Positions 7,905 to 40,831 of a DNA stretch of 56,108 nucleotides are shown piece after piece. The position numbers and the translations under genes are program-made. The stretch covers positions 1 through 56,108 of the forward strand of contig JAGATY010000045.1 of the NCBI GenBank assembly GCA_017621035.1, given 5' to 3'. Origin of the DNA: Bacteroides sp. (GTDB taxonomy: Bacteria; Bacteroidota; Bacteroidia; Bacteroidales; Bacteroidaceae). Position 1 is the first letter of the stretch, and each line of letters begins with the position of its first letter. The notes beneath the pieces are model-generated. The model was not told where the DNA came from. It saw only the letters and a program-made list of their open reading frames with translations, and did no database searches.

Positions 7905-8022
7905 GAATGATGAATGAAGAATGAAGAATTGCCATTCGGTCGATTCTTTTCATCTTTCATTCTTGTTATTTATAAAAATTCTTCATTTTGTCGCATCGCG
8001 ACTATTCTTCATTCTTCATTTA
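7905..8022. repeat. Inverted-repeat spacer inside the left efflux operon
   Basis: The spacer between adaptor and permease genes has AATGAAGAATGAAGAAT-type octamer repeats on one side and ATTCTTCATTCTTCATT on the other, with a small hairpin GTCGCatcGCGAC before the right end. The right end overlaps the last codons of the adaptor. Similar spacers are at 16488-16547 and 20141-20245. Confidence 0.65.
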
Positions 8023-16487: not shown

Positions 16488-16547
16488 AAGGAAATGAAGA
16501 ATGAAGAGCCAAGGAACTATTCCATTCTTAACTCTTCATTCTTCATT
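16488..16547. repeat. TCTTCATTCTTCATT inverted repeat between lpd and dacB
   Basis: AATGAAGAATGAAGAG (from about 16492) faces CTCTTCATTCTTCATT (to 16547). This is the same terminal motif as in the efflux-operon spacers at 7905-8022 and 20141-20245. No hairpin with a T run, so not an obvious terminator. Confidence 0.65.
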
Positions 16548-23200: not shown

Positions 23201-23480
23201 TTTCGGTTTGCTTCCATTGATGGTGGCTACCGGAGTGGGTGCCAATGGTAACCGCTCACTTGGTACAGGTGCTGTGGGTGGTATGGTTATCGGTACCTTG
23301 GCTTTGCTTTTCATTGTGCCTACTCTCTTCATTGTCTTCCAGTACCTGCAGGAGAAGATTCGTCCCAATCAGGCTGAGCCTTCTCACGACTGGCAGATTC
23401 AGGAAGAGTATGTAGAGATGGAAGAAGAGCGCAAGCACCATCTGCTGATGAAGAAGGAAGAGAAAGGAAAGAAGTTTTGA
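20256..23480 (+). CDS. RND multidrug efflux permease, HAE-1 type (right operon)
   Basis: A 1074-residue AcrB/MexB-type proton antiporter. QYPDIAPPTVMV, TM4 GTVVDDAIVVVEAV (D405, D406, the same numbering as the left pump) and TM10 GLLAKTAILLTEYA carry the proton-relay residues. The porter domain includes FRQGTDPDMAAVNVQNRV and PGMIPGYGMGNS. It ends in a charged tail (EEERKHHLLMKKEEKGKKF). About 60-65% identical to the left pump by eye over the first 400 residues, so the duplication is old at the protein level. Confidence 0.95.
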   Translation: MNLRTFIERPVLSAVISIGIVIVGLIGLKTLPVEQYPDIAPPTVMVMTNYYGASAETLQKSVIAPLEEAINGVEDMTYMTSTATNAGSVEIMVYFRQGTDPDMAAVNVQNRVAMATGQLPAEVTQVGVSTIKRQNSMLQVFTLSSPDDSYDEEFLSNYISINLKPEILRLEGVGQLVVLGGNYSMRVWMKPDVMAQYKLIPSDVIYALAEQNIESATGAFGENSKETYQYTMKYKGRKQTPEEFGEIVVRSSADGEVLKLKDIADIELGIDSYSYVGKLNGHPGIGCLVFQTAGSNATKVNASIDAFLEEARKDLPKGVELTQVMSSNDFLFASIHEVVKTLLEAIFLVILVVYIFLQDIRSTLIPLVGIGVSLVGTFAFMAIAGFSVNLITLFALVLVIGTVVDDAIVVVEAVQARFDVGYKSSYMASIDAMKGISNAVITSSLVFMAVFIPVSFMSGTSGTFYTQFGLTMAVAVGISAINALTLSPALCALLLKPYVNEDGTVKNNFAARFRKAFNAAFSTMVEKYKNGVLFFIKRRWLTWSLLVASVVLLVFLMSNTKTGLVPDEDQGVVLVNVTTPSGSSLATTDKIMDELRKRLETLPGLENLSSTTGYGLISGQGNSAGMFIVGLKDWSERNKDEEQVQAVINQIYAVTADVKDASVFAMAPGMIPGYGMGNSLDLNVQDKMGGDLGEFNRHTWAYIAALNERPEIARAYSTFAINYPQWEVDVNAAKCKRAGIAPNEVLTTLAGYYGGQYVSDFNRFSKVYRVMIQANPKYRLDEASLNNTFVRMGNGEMAPLSQFVTLKRVYGAETLNRFNMYNSIAVSVMPAEGYSTGDALKVVKEVAASTLPKGYGYDFGGITREENEASGGTAIIFGICILMIYLILCALYESFLVPFAVILSVPAGLMGSFLFAKIMGLENNIYLQTGLIMLIGLLAKTAILLTEYAAERRKAGMSLTSAALSAAKARLRPILMTAGTMIFGLLPLMVATGVGANGNRSLGTGAVGGMVIGTLALLFIVPTLFIVFQYLQEKIRPNQAEPSHDWQIQEEYVEMEEERKHHLLMKKEEKGKKF

Positions 23481-23561
23481 TTTACTATTTAGCGATTTTA
23501 CGATTTACTATTTAGCAATTTACTATCTACTATTTAGCGATTTACAATTTACTATTTACAG
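23481..23561 (+). repeat. Array of 7-8-bp repeats between permease and channel genes
   Basis: The 81-bp spacer consists almost wholly of variants of yATTTAb (TTTACTATTTAGCGA and similar, about ten units). Stops occur in all forward frames, so it does not code. In the left operon the matching position carries the 41-codon ORF instead. Confidence 0.7.
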
Positions 23562-37663: not shown

Positions 37664-39610
37664 ATGACTAAGATAGATTCTAAGATTCCGGCAGGACCGG
37701 TGGCCGAGAAATGGACAAACTATAAGGCTCACCAAAAACTTGTTAACCCTGCCAACAAGCGTCGTTTGGATATCATCGTAGTGGGTACAGGTTTGGCCGG
37801 TGCCAGTGCAGCTGCATCACTCGGTGAGATGGGTTTCCGCGTATTTAACTTCTGTATTCAAGATTCACCTCGTCGTGCGCACTCCATTGCAGCACAGGGT
37901 GGTATCAATGCAGCAAAGAACTATCAGAACGATGGTGACTCTGTTTACCGTCTGTTTTACGATACAGTAAAGGGTGGTGACTACCGTGCCCGTGAAGCTA
38001 ACGTTTATCGTTTGGCTGAAGTATCTAACAACATCATCGACCAATGTGTGGCACAAGGTGTTCCTTTTGCACGCGAATATGGTGGTACACTGGACAACCG
38101 TTCATTCGGTGGTGCTCAGGTATCTCGTACCTTCTATGCCAAGGGTCAGACCGGTCAGCAGTTGTTGCTGGGTGCTTATTCTGCACTGAGCCGTCAGGTA
38201 GGTGTAGGTACAGTGAAGTTGTACACTCGTTATGAAATGCAAGACGTGGTAGTTATCGATGGCCGTGCTCGCGGTATCATTGCTAAGAACCTTGTAACCG
38301 GCGAGTTGGAACGTTTTGCTGCTCACGCAGTAGTCATTGCTACCGGTGGTTACGGTAACGCTTACTTCCTCTCTACCAACGCTATGGGTTGTAACTGTTC
38401 TGCTGCTATGGCTTGCTACCGTAAGGGTGCTTGGTTTGCCAACCCTGCTTACGTACAGATTCACCCCACTTGTGTTCCCGTACACGGCGACAAGCAATCT
38501 AAGTTGACTTTGATGTCAGAGTCTCTGCGTAACGACGGTCGTATCTGGGTTCCCAAGAAATTGGAAGATGCCAAGAAATTGCAAGAAGGTACACTTCAGG
38601 GTAAAGATATTCCTGATGAAGACCGCGACTTCTACTTGGAACGTCGTTATCCGGCCTTCGGTAACTTGGTTCCGCGTGACGTTGCCAGCCGTGCTGCTAA
38701 GGAACGTTGCGACAAGGGCTATGGCGTAAACAACACAGGTTTGGCCGTATTCCTCGACTTCAAGTATGCTATCGACCGTTTGGGTAAGGATGTGGTTGCT
38801 GCTCGCTATGGTAACCTCTTCGATATGTATGAAGAAATCACTGATGACAATCCGTACGAAACCCCGATGATGATTTATCCTGCTATCCACTATACAATGG
38901 GTGGTATCTGGGTAGACTACGAACTGATGACCTCTATCAAGGGTCTGTTCGCCATCGGTGAATGTAACTTCTCTGACCACGGTGCCAACCGTTTGGGTGC
39001 ATCTGCATTGATGCAAGGTTTGGCTGATGGTTACTTTGTATTGCCTTACACCATCCAGAACTACCTGGCCGACCAGATTACAGTTCCTCGCTTCTCAACA
39101 GATCTGCCTGAGTTTGCTGCTGCAGAAAAGGCTATCCAAGACAAGATTGACTGGATGATGGGCATCCAAGGTAAGCGCTCTGTAGACTCAATCCACAAGG
39201 AACTGGGTCACATCATGTGGGAATACATGGGTATGGGTCGTACCGAAGAAGGCTTGAAGACCGGTCTTGCCAAGCTGAAAGAAATCCGCAAGGTATTTGA
39301 GAAAGACCTCTTCATCCCGGGCAGCAAGGAAGGCATGAACGTAGAGCTGGACAAGGCTATCCGTTTGTGGGACTTCATCACCATGGGCGAACTCGTTGCT
39401 TACGATGCTTTGAACCGTAACGAATCTTGTGGCGGTCACTTCCGTGAAGAGTACCAGACAGAAGAGGGTGAAGCTAAGCGTGACGACGAGAACTTCTTCT
39501 ACGTTGCTTGCTGGGAATACCAAGGCAGCGACGAAAAAGAACCCGTCCTCCTGAAAGAACCCCTGGTTTACGAAGCAATCAAGGTACAGACGAGAAATTA
39601 TAAATCATAA
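37664..39610 (+). CDS. sdhA: Succinate dehydrogenase/fumarate reductase flavoprotein subunit
   Basis: A 648-residue catalytic subunit with covalently bound [23 protein letters not shown] (about 35-54) is the FAD-binding motif; [20 protein letters not shown] has the covalent His region ([11 protein letters not shown]); active-site segments include HPTCVP and [12 protein letters not shown], and [20 protein letters not shown]. It interconverts fumarate and succinate, the main anaerobic respiration step in Bacteroides. The gap to sdhB is unusually long because of an inserted small gene. Confidence 0.96.
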
Positions 39611-39625
39611 ATAACGTTGTTGGTA

Positions 39626-40051
39626 GTCGACAAGTTAACAAGTTGACAAGACACAAGGAAAAAGAAGGTAATGGTGAAAAGTCATAAGGATTTGCTGGTA
39701 TGGCAGAAAAGTATAGTTTTTGTAAAAGAACTCTATACTGTGACTCAATCGTTCCCGAAAGAAGAATTATATGGAATAACATCCCAAATGAGGCGTGCTG
39801 CGGTTTCCATTCCATCCAATATTTCAGAAGGATATGGAAGATGCCACGACAGAGAGTTGATACATTTCTTATATATTTCATTAGGTTCTGCTGCTGAAAT
39901 AGAAACTCAACTCATCGTTTGCAAAGAAATCGGACTGTTGCCCGATGACAAATATAAATTCTTCATGGATAGTATTTCAGAGATAATCAGAATGCTGTCG
40001 GCTCTTGTTAACAAACGGGTTTCAACCTCGTCAACTTGTTAACTCGTCAAC
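39626..40051 (+). mobile_element. IVS-like element: inverted octamer-repeat ends bracketing a four-helix-bundle gene
   Basis: The left end (39626-39650) is a run of CAAGTTRA octamers. The right end (40027-40051, with more units to 40060) is the complementary run YAACTTGT. They pair over 25 positions with 22 matches and 15 contiguous. In the sdh transcript this would be a long stem enclosing the ORF, the same plan as 23S rRNA intervening sequences that encode S23 proteins. The right repeat also encodes the last residues of the protein. It sits wholly between sdhA and sdhB. Confidence 0.6.
39671..40042 (+). CDS. Four-helix bundle protein (S23/IVS family)
   Basis: A 123-residue helical protein: KDLLVWQKSIVFVKELYTVT, then FPKEELYGITSQMRRAAVSIPSNISEGYGR (the family hallmark R-A-SIPSNI-EG), FLYISLGSAAEIETQL and IGLLPDDKYKFFMDSISEI. 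This matches the 23S rRNA intervening-sequence protein family, related to the Avd accessory proteins of diversity-generating retroelements. It has no known link to complex II. The AT-rich third-codon usage differs from the neighbouring sdh genes. Its final residues (STSSTC) are encoded by the right inverted repeat. Start ATG at 39671 follows AAAGAAGGTA. Confidence 0.88.
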   Translation: MVKSHKDLLVWQKSIVFVKELYTVTQSFPKEELYGITSQMRRAAVSIPSNISEGYGRCHDRELIHFLYISLGSAAEIETQLIVCKEIGLLPDDKYKFFMDSISEIIRMLSALVNKRVSTSSTC

Positions 40052-40075
40052 TTGTCAACTCAAAATATTAAAATT

Positions 40076-40831
40076 ATGGACAAAAACATATCATTTACAT
40101 TGAAGGTATGGCGCCAAGCAGGTCCGAAGGCTAAGGGCGCTTTTGAAACATACCAGATGAAAGATATCCCGGGTGATACTTCATTCCTGGAAATGCTCGA
40201 TATCTTGAACGAACAACTCATCTCCGAAGGTAAGGAACCTGTTGTATTTGACCACGACTGCCGCGAAGGTATCTGCGGTATGTGTTCACTCTACATCAAC
40301 GGTCATCCGCATGGCCCTGCTACCGGTGCTACCACTTGCCAAATCTACATGCGTCGTTTCAAAGATGGCGATACCATCACTGTTGAGCCTTGGCGTTCTG
40401 CCGGTTTCCCGGTTATCAAAGACTTGATGGTTGACCGTACTGCTTACGACAAGATTATGCAAGCCGGCGGTTACGTAAGCGTTCGTACCGGTGCTCCGCA
40501 AGATGCCAATGCCATCCTTATCCCGAAACCCATTGCAGACGAAGCTATGGATGCTGCCAGCTGTATCGGTTGTGGCGCTTGTGTAGCTGCATGTAAGAAT
40601 GGTTCTGCCATGTTGTTCGTTTCAGCCAAAGTTAGCCAGTTGAATCTGTTGCCGCAAGGCAAGCCCGAAGCACTTCGCCGTGCTAAGGCCATGTTGAGCA
40701 AAATGGATGAGCTGGGCTTCGGTAACTGTACCAACACACGTGCCTGCGAAGCCGAGTGCCCGAAGAATGTTTCCATCAGCAACATTGCCCGCCTGAACCG
40801 CGACTTCATCAAGGCTAAGCTGAAAGACTGA
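40076..40831 (+). CDS. sdhB: Succinate dehydrogenase/fumarate reductase iron-sulfur subunit
   Basis: A 251-residue subunit carrying three Fe-S clusters: the [2Fe-2S] site in [13 protein letters not shown], the [4Fe-4S] site in [11 protein letters not shown], and further cysteines in [12 protein letters not shown] for the second high-potential cluster. Start [11 protein letters not shown] at 40076; the frame is open from 40052 within the repeat, but no good start lies there. Electron conduit between the SdhA flavin and SdhC haem. Last gene of the operon, followed by a strong terminator. Confidence 0.95.

Follow-up and report, generated by a model that had tools for sequence, protein, structure and literature searches.

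The insert between sdhA and sdhB in the window, which here means the whole analysed stretch of 56,108 nucleotides from Bacteroides sp. contig JAGATY010000045.1, was interpreted as a mobile, largely selfish element with inverted arrays of short repeat units as its ends. The S23 protein encoded within it most likely binds the unit of its own arrays and would in this way keep or spread the cognate elements; we assign a probability of about 0.65 to this reading. The element would measure about 440 bp and consist of a left short-unit array, the S23 gene and a right inverted array. S23, a relative of Avd, would most likely bind either the stem or a single strand of its array unit, the gene-less hairpins that carry this unit would be non-autonomous derivatives of the element, and the classical intervening sequence (IVS) would be an element of this type located within 23S rRNA. 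The sequence comparisons that argue for this reading comprise a homologous unit running from array to array, the tendency of the repeat unit to follow the protein lineage, empty sites, insertions, apparent gene-less derivatives and purifying selection on the S23 genes.

The element in the sdhA-sdhB spacer

The features of the element are given in Table 1. The earlier note on this DNA had described a four-helix-bundle frame between two subunits of complex II, inverted arrays pairing at 22 of 25 positions, and a right array that encodes the last residues of the frame. All three descriptions were confirmed: the spacer contains a PF05635 gene, the arms at 39625-39650 and 40027-40052 pair in inverted orientation over 26 nt at 88%, and the stop codon of the S23 ORF (40040-40042) falls within the right array (40022-40061). 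The octamer-pair pattern, with up to three mismatches, occurred five times in the window, four of these in the element, at an expectation of 0.51. In the predicted fold of the spacer RNA the two arrays form a terminal stem (z = -3.28), and none of 100 shuffled sequences was as stable. A known structured RNA was ruled out at the element as Rfam gave no match over 39400-40200.

Table 1. Positions of the element, its parts and the host genes in the window.
Feature	Position	Strand	Basis
sdhA (succinate dehydrogenase/fumarate reductase flavoprotein, upstream host gene)	37664..39610	+	FAD_binding_2, Succ_DH_flav_C; ORF
sdhA-sdhB spacer, 465 bp, contains the entire element	39611..40075	+	
Left arm, array of octamer ACAAGTTR	39625..39650 (clean units 39630-39650)	+	
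Inner-left core GTTGACAAGACACAAGG, common to gene-less hairpins of the window's genome	39642..39658	+	
S23/IVP four-helix-bundle gene, 123 aa	39671..40042	+	PF05635, TIGR02436, AlphaFold, structure matches
Right arm, YAACTTGT-type octamer array, overlapping the last S23 codons	40022..40061	+	
Right-arm inner end CCTCGTCAAC, common to gene-less hairpins	40026..40035	+	
sdhB (iron-sulfur subunit, downstream host gene)	40076..40831	+	Fer2_3, Fer4 domains; ORF

The S23 protein

The window S23 protein matched PF05635 (23S_rRNA_IVP) with 132.9 bits and TIGR02436 ('four helix bundle protein') with 130.1 bits, the cut-offs being 33.8 and 24, respectively. Its AlphaFold monomer model consisted of four helices with a pLDDT of 95 and had the S23 four-helix-bundle fold, with TM-scores of 0.89 to 2gsc and 0.80 to 2rld. 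The modelled fold also resembles that of Avd from diversity-generating retroelements (TM 0.77 to both 4dwl and 8ub7). The PHROG Avd profile was matched at 9.4e-9 and the match to the bAvd profile was below its cut-off; S23 genes are presented as Avd relatives in an excerpt of PMC10053308. Unlike a diversity-generating retroelement, the 465-bp element holds no reverse transcriptase, template repeat or variable repeat, and its neighbours are sdhA and sdhB.

The near-invariant polar residues of S23, Q39, R42, S46, N50, E53 and E76, likely mark a functional surface or the core of the protein. The S23 genes evolve under purifying selection: of 18 pairs, 13 had a computable dN/dS, which was 0.05-0.14, with dS of several pairs near or past saturation; the ratio was undefined due to saturation in the other five. 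A Xanthomonas S23 protein was reported as a pentamer (PMC4990558, as excerpted), and by analogy with this protein, Xcc0516, the window S23 should form pentamers. An anti-phage defence gene was ruled out, PADLOC giving no match.

Inverted arrays around S23 genes

S23 genes from several phyla were generally bracketed by inverted short-unit arrays. The stem score was determined as the ungapped pairing of the arms over 200-nt flanks, with the cut set at 12 or higher. The 63 S23 loci of the controlled test were chosen by protein alone and every available locus was included, among them four with less than 100 nt of flank, the near-duplicates L057/L059 and L047/L050, and three very short frames (L055, L072, L078). 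A score of at least 12 was reached by 37 of these 63 loci. The controls that reached it were 2 of the 75 neighbouring genes, 1 of the 315 dinucleotide-shuffled sequences and 5 of the 311 mispaired flanks. At a score of at least 14 the corresponding values were 31/63, 0/75, 0/315 and 3/311.

The shuffle and neighbour controls cover the 63-locus set alone; the following sets, tallied by eye from the scores, are without controls of their own. Bracketing was observed at the stem cut in 23 of 27 S23 loci of the genus and in 15 of 16 copies on cyanobacterial plasmids. The 16 plasmid records were taken, mostly from among the first entries, out of 39 that contain S23, and L163 and L164 represent one site. 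Ten genomes from several phyla gave 18 of 30 loci (some already among the 63), and in the class of L076's genome all 10 newly listed loci were bracketed, two of them from G099, which is also represented in the 30-locus set. The loci below the cut, 26 of the 63 and 12 of the 30, included distant, broken and contig-end cases as well as intact ones (L235, L256).

The array unit was mostly 7 or 8 bp long and varied between S23 lineages. Some units were A+T-rich (L002, L003, L115), as would be expected if short-period repeats of A+T-rich spacers paired accidentally, but others were G+C-rich (L156, L246, L265). The neighbour-gene, shuffle and mispaired-flank controls of the 63-locus set, the octamer expectation of 0.51 and the complete absence of the reversed octamer pattern from the window's genome led to the rejection of chance pairing, the probability of which is practically negligible.

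Array unit and protein lineage

The array unit tends to go with the S23 protein lineage, as judged by comparing array k-mers and protein identities. Of the 101 loci used, 74 had a stem and entered the comparison; here, as in the other protein comparisons, frames of at least 80 aa were taken, i.e. all but L055, L072, L078, L110 and L114. At unrelated sites, 7 of the 8 pairs whose proteins were at least 70% identical had an array k-mer overlap above 0.2, as had 4 of 9 pairs at 60-70% identity; these 17 non-syntenic pairs were mostly cyanobacterial or of the AGCTACRA type. The sharing amounted to about 10% of 147 pairs at 50-60% identity and to 1% or less below 40%. In the Mantel test with non-syntenic pairs p was 0.007, and rho was small (0.098). 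Within a genome, paralogues carried different units, and by eye the six S23 copies of G099 had six units.

Units of the five S23 genes of the window's genome were matched by 18 of the 49 other arrays analysed there. With random sets of five S23 genes from other taxa the mean was 0.9 and the maximum 3, and with sets from within the genus 3.5 and 10, respectively. The 49 arrays are those of a total of 50 that remain when the right arm of the window element is set aside. One of the 18 matching arrays fits the window's own unit and none fits that of L005.

Evidence for movement

The S23 loci L163, L165 and L167, found in three Nostocales plasmid contexts, share 78-81% DNA identity from -32/-49 to +12/+14 bp of the S23 ORF. 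Beyond that block only short array pieces match, and therefore the shared block extends from array to array. The same pattern of homology was detected with L155/L158 and L159/L162. A closely similar version of the operon that carries the element in L167 and L173 is found in L161; it lacks the element, and no clear duplication marks the empty site. The S23 gene of L171, otherwise almost identical to that of L167, is split by a 180-bp gene-less element with inverted arrays of the same heptamer, and L170 is a 170-bp deletion derivative that retains both element ends. Matches to the gene-less Nostocales element numbered 101 and were distributed over 43 plasmid records; in 27 of these records a match extended over 80% or more of the query. 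On a Calothrix plasmid (L276) the element is flanked by two fragments annotated as RarA fusions, as if splitting one gene.

The six aligned copies of the gene-less Nostocales element (L274-L278 and L171) have shared ends, and GATAA follows the right end in 6/6. The GATAA of L171 was already present in the uninterrupted S23 gene before the insertion, and the adjacency suggests a target preference of this gene-less element. Apart from a TTCTA microhomology and an ambiguity of 0-1 bp, no clear target-site duplication was detected at the empty site, at the L171 insertion or in the six gene-less copies. The lack of a clear target duplication and the fixed neighbour are reminiscent of IS200/IS605 elements. 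The fixed GATAA resembles the target choice of a dedicated transposase, and both features speak for hairpin arrays that are moved by another enzyme (IS200/IS605, RAYT or similar) with S23 as cargo or accessory. Due to the fixed GATAA neighbour, a transposase acting in trans is possible for that cyanobacterial gene-less family. Overall, S23 as a passenger is considered rather unlikely.

The sole near-identical S23 pair in one genome, L057/L059, lies inside an identical block of 6.3 kb and not in an element-only copy. All the Bacteroidota S23 pairs compared except L099/L100 share flanks well past the arrays, which indicates that the site is conserved rather than new there.

The sdh site in related genomes

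The sdh site was examined in 70 of the 87 genus genomes with an SdhB match; among the other 17, G042 gave a weak unrelated match. The S23 element was present at the site in 7 of the 70 congeners and absent in 63, thus the spacer comparison suggested in the earlier note revealed that the gene is not universal at this position. The sdh-site S23 of G000, G040 and G063 carries the octamer AGTTRACR, and that of G094, G015, G089 and G045 carries AGTTTWTR, the G045 case having been deduced from the ends of two contigs. At the same position a gene-less AGCTACRA hairpin was found in G041, a degenerate hairpin (by eye) in G083, and a different kind of insert, 102 bp long, in the spacer of G071 (L144). 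The spacer length was 6-42 bp in 60 of the 70 congeners, where the values of 6-13 bp depend on the start-codon choice of the script, and 28-38 bp in 24 of the 30 in the first set examined.

Altogether 19 of 106 S23 loci were flanked by SdhA or SdhB, and they belong to Bacteroidaceae, Prevotellaceae, Paludibacteraceae and Dysgonomonadaceae. The arrays were retained in these orthologous loci, with a stem score of at least 11 in all 18 that do not run into a contig end, and neither of the two outcomes by which the earlier note would be refuted was thus observed. In the S23 protein tree, which included 15 of the 19 loci, the sdh-site proteins nearly formed one clade, with 3 label changes, and the flanks are syntenic. 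Such a picture could be produced by vertical inheritance with frequent loss, without any current movement at the site. However, the S23 proteins of G094, G015 and G089 group with those of Prevotellaceae (support 100/98), whereas the SdhA fragments of the same genomes are 91-92% identical to that of the window and 84-86% identical to those of Prevotellaceae. L079 suggests a second mismatch of S23 and SdhA histories: its S23, which was left out of the S23 tree, is 66% identical to the window's in the best segment, and its partial SdhA, a short row in the SdhA tree, is 76% identical and groups with L047/L050. Loss alone would demand that the ancestor had carried two lineages next to each other at a single site, and we regard this explanation as doubtful. 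The discordance would be best explained by site-faithful, homing-like horizontal re-entry, for which recombination via the conserved flanks is a possible route.

The recurrence in the same spacer over four Bacteroidales families, the sense orientation and the predicted terminal stem can also be read as signs of a domesticated post-transcriptional switch, in which RNase III would cut the stem and S23 would bind, setting the SdhA:SdhB ratio. RNase III does excise the Coxiella IVS, according to the portion of PMC4990558 that deals with it. A role of this kind for the host is quite improbable given that just 7 of 70 congeners have the site occupied, that S23 lineages with other units occupy other spacers, and that the histories of S23 and the host genes are discordant at the sdh site. 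Movement of a largely selfish element remained the preferred interpretation.

Gene-less hairpins in the window's genome and genus

The octamer pattern GTYAACTYGTYAACTYGT, with up to two mismatches, gave 111 matches in the 2.64-Mb genome of the window and none when reversed. In a subset of the listed octamer matches, at least 15 pairings within 150 nt (14 hairpins) were in the polarity of the S23 arms and one was in the opposite polarity; nine of those 15 consist of two 18-mers 15-17 nt apart. A sample of 350,806 bases of this genome, 82% of which is covered by ORFs of at least 100 aa, contained 50 short-period arrays, counting every unit; 43 of them were located outside such ORFs.

Twelve gene-less octamer hairpins hold the core GACAAGACACAAGG..CCTCGTCAAC, i.e. 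the inner ends of the window element fused together with the gene absent. The core search covered the octamer-chosen loci (L006-L035) plus 20 stretches not so chosen and resulted in 19 matches, of which 12 were flanked by arrays as judged by eye and 7, all with 5 mismatches, were not; the reversed pattern gave 5. As in MITE-like families, the gene-less copies therefore share both ends with the coding element, in these 12 hairpins as well as in L170. The core is close to the array unit itself, and so part of the core match may be array. Owing to the fused inner ends, at least some of the gene-less hairpins resemble deletion derivatives of the element; alternatively, the element may be a hairpin that acquired a gene.

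Four further arrays were noted in the window. The stretch 7905-8020 is an inverted array of a different unit (GAATGAAGAATGAAGAAT ... ATTCTTCATTCTTCATT) with the same architecture minus the gene, and 16493-16547 is a short hairpin of the heptamers AATGAAG / CATTCTT. The array GTTTTTGAGTTTTTAAGTTT at 846-888 has its best match in AGTTTWTR, which is the unit of the second S23 lineage at the sdh site (L103), and the long ATTTACTATTTAG heptamer array at 23479-23559 is by eye like the unit around the L005 S23 of the same genome.

In the genus, a window-like S23 was present in 11 of 18 genomes with at least 10 octamer matches vs 14 of 81 others (p = 3.6e-4). S23 bracketed by that octamer was found in 3 of the 18 (G000, G040, G063), and S23 with other units in 8 (G015, G016, G032, G045, G069, G089, G094, G095); the remaining 7 are without a window-like S23, including G055, which is 99% complete. 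A strict link between octamer count and window-like S23 was therefore rejected, the association being significant yet not strict, and weaker for octamer-bearing S23. The 15 of 18 octamer-rich genomes without an octamer-bearing S23 indicate that hairpin number is not simply tied to the cognate gene. Either the hairpins outlive their gene, or they are served by a protein with another unit or by another enzyme; some of the assemblies are incomplete.

The same 15 genomes could be expected if S23 were cargo of a foreign transposase. Nevertheless, no Y1_Tnp match was obtained in the window's genome (91% complete) despite the 111 octamer matches, and Y1_Tnp was found in 4 of 18 octamer-rich vs 16 of 81 other genomes (p = 0.76). 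The absence from this genome and the lack of enrichment argue against a RAYT or IS200-type engine here, and a Y1/RAYT transposase was rejected as the driver in the genus. The agreement of the units with the S23 protein and the strong purifying selection on S23 are likewise at odds with a passenger.

The window's genome resembles REPIN-RAYT systems, as outlined in part of PMC3116915, in that inverted short repeats form dispersed extragenic hairpin pairs, gene-less members reach high copy numbers and a distinct repeat type accompanies each protein. In contrast to RAYT, a Y1 HUH transposase, S23 is a four-helix bundle, and its ends are degenerate short-unit arrays, whereas REPINs are built of single REP palindromes. 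PF01797 had 0 matches in G000, the window's genome, and no association with it was observed in 99 genomes.

RNA setting and relation to rRNA intervening sequences

Of 88 scored S23 loci, 74 lie between two frames of one direction, the neighbours being taken as long open frames, and S23 is in sense to its co-directional neighbours in 68 of the 74, or in 24 of 27 collapsed sites. The RNA-family scan of twenty S23 loci yielded tRNAs only, and that of a further 14 yielded one IVS, in addition to tRNA, tmRNA and RtT matches. In this IVS, L268, a full-length LSU rRNA match encloses a broken S23 frame together with inverted heptamers that reach a stem score of 21; it is thus a true intervening sequence, inserted in what we take to be helix 45.

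These data divide the interpretation put forward in the earlier note. The proposal that an IVS-like element resides in an mRNA has good support, as the true IVS has the same plan with S23 between inverted heptamer arrays, and the proposed mobility gains support from the empty site, the array-to-array homology and the discordance between S23 and host genes. The supposed preference for structured RNA genes was not borne out, since the loci are found predominantly between co-directional frames. As a separate observation, two S23 genes of one Candidatus Uhrbacteria genome, L253 and L262, are located near one tmRNA gene.

Intervening sequences are known as possible selfish elements. The window element shares with the 23S rRNA IVSs ends that pair, in the predicted fold, into a stem around the ORF, but it is located between sdhA and sdhB and not inside an rRNA gene. 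In Coxiella and Leptospira, too, the S23 frame lies inside the stem, and the Coxiella IVS has short tandem heptamers upstream of an S23 ORF whose protein is probably not made (the IVS passages of PMC4990558). In contrast, the window element resides in an mRNA spacer, has an intact frame and is accompanied by scattered gene-less hairpins of its unit.

Possible routes of movement and wider relations

Movement via an RNA or cDNA route, with a reverse transcriptase supplied in trans, is proposed as a tentative guess because the elements are mostly in sense between co-directional genes, lack a clear duplication of the target, and code for an Avd-like protein without any known enzyme. Movement as single-stranded DNA has a similar likelihood, and neither of the two would be called probable at present.

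With somewhat less than even odds, S23 genes and their arrays may constitute one multi-phylum class of bacterial mobile elements without a recognisable recombinase, in which each S23 lineage would read its own 7-9-bp unit, gene-less hairpins would have given rise to many of the heptamer arrays (STRR and related ones) that have long lacked an explanation, and IVSs would be the members residing in rRNA. If so, the function of S23/IVP, the origin of rRNA IVSs and the intergenic heptamer arrays of cyanobacteria, Bacteroidota and others would be joined in one system, and the class would represent a new mobile element with a helical bundle of 120 residues as its sole gene.

STRR is reportedly the subject of a 1990 paper, and Elhai is said to have worked on small dispersed repeats. 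The cyanobacterial STRR and the TAACTGA and GGGAATC/GGGGA(C/T)T arrays have the same period as the arrays studied here and are intergenic, and they have been described on their own (PMC4679880, PMC4692102, in the parts concerned). The main text of these two articles gave no hit for 'S23' in a text search. Cyanobacterial S23 genes carry heptamer-type arrays like those, and the STRR, TAACTGA and GGGAATC arrays may accordingly be arms of S23 elements. No report linking S23 to inverted short-unit arrays outside rRNA was found in the open-licence literature searched. Other papers mention S23 genes in rRNA inserts found in CPR bacteria (PMC11270868) and in cas loci (PMC3936711). If the proposed class exists, the latter, like our L157 and L160, would be insertions into operons and not CRISPR parts. 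The S23 elements L157 and L160 differ in their units and come from two cyanobacterial plasmids, on each of which the element separates cas6 from cas4.
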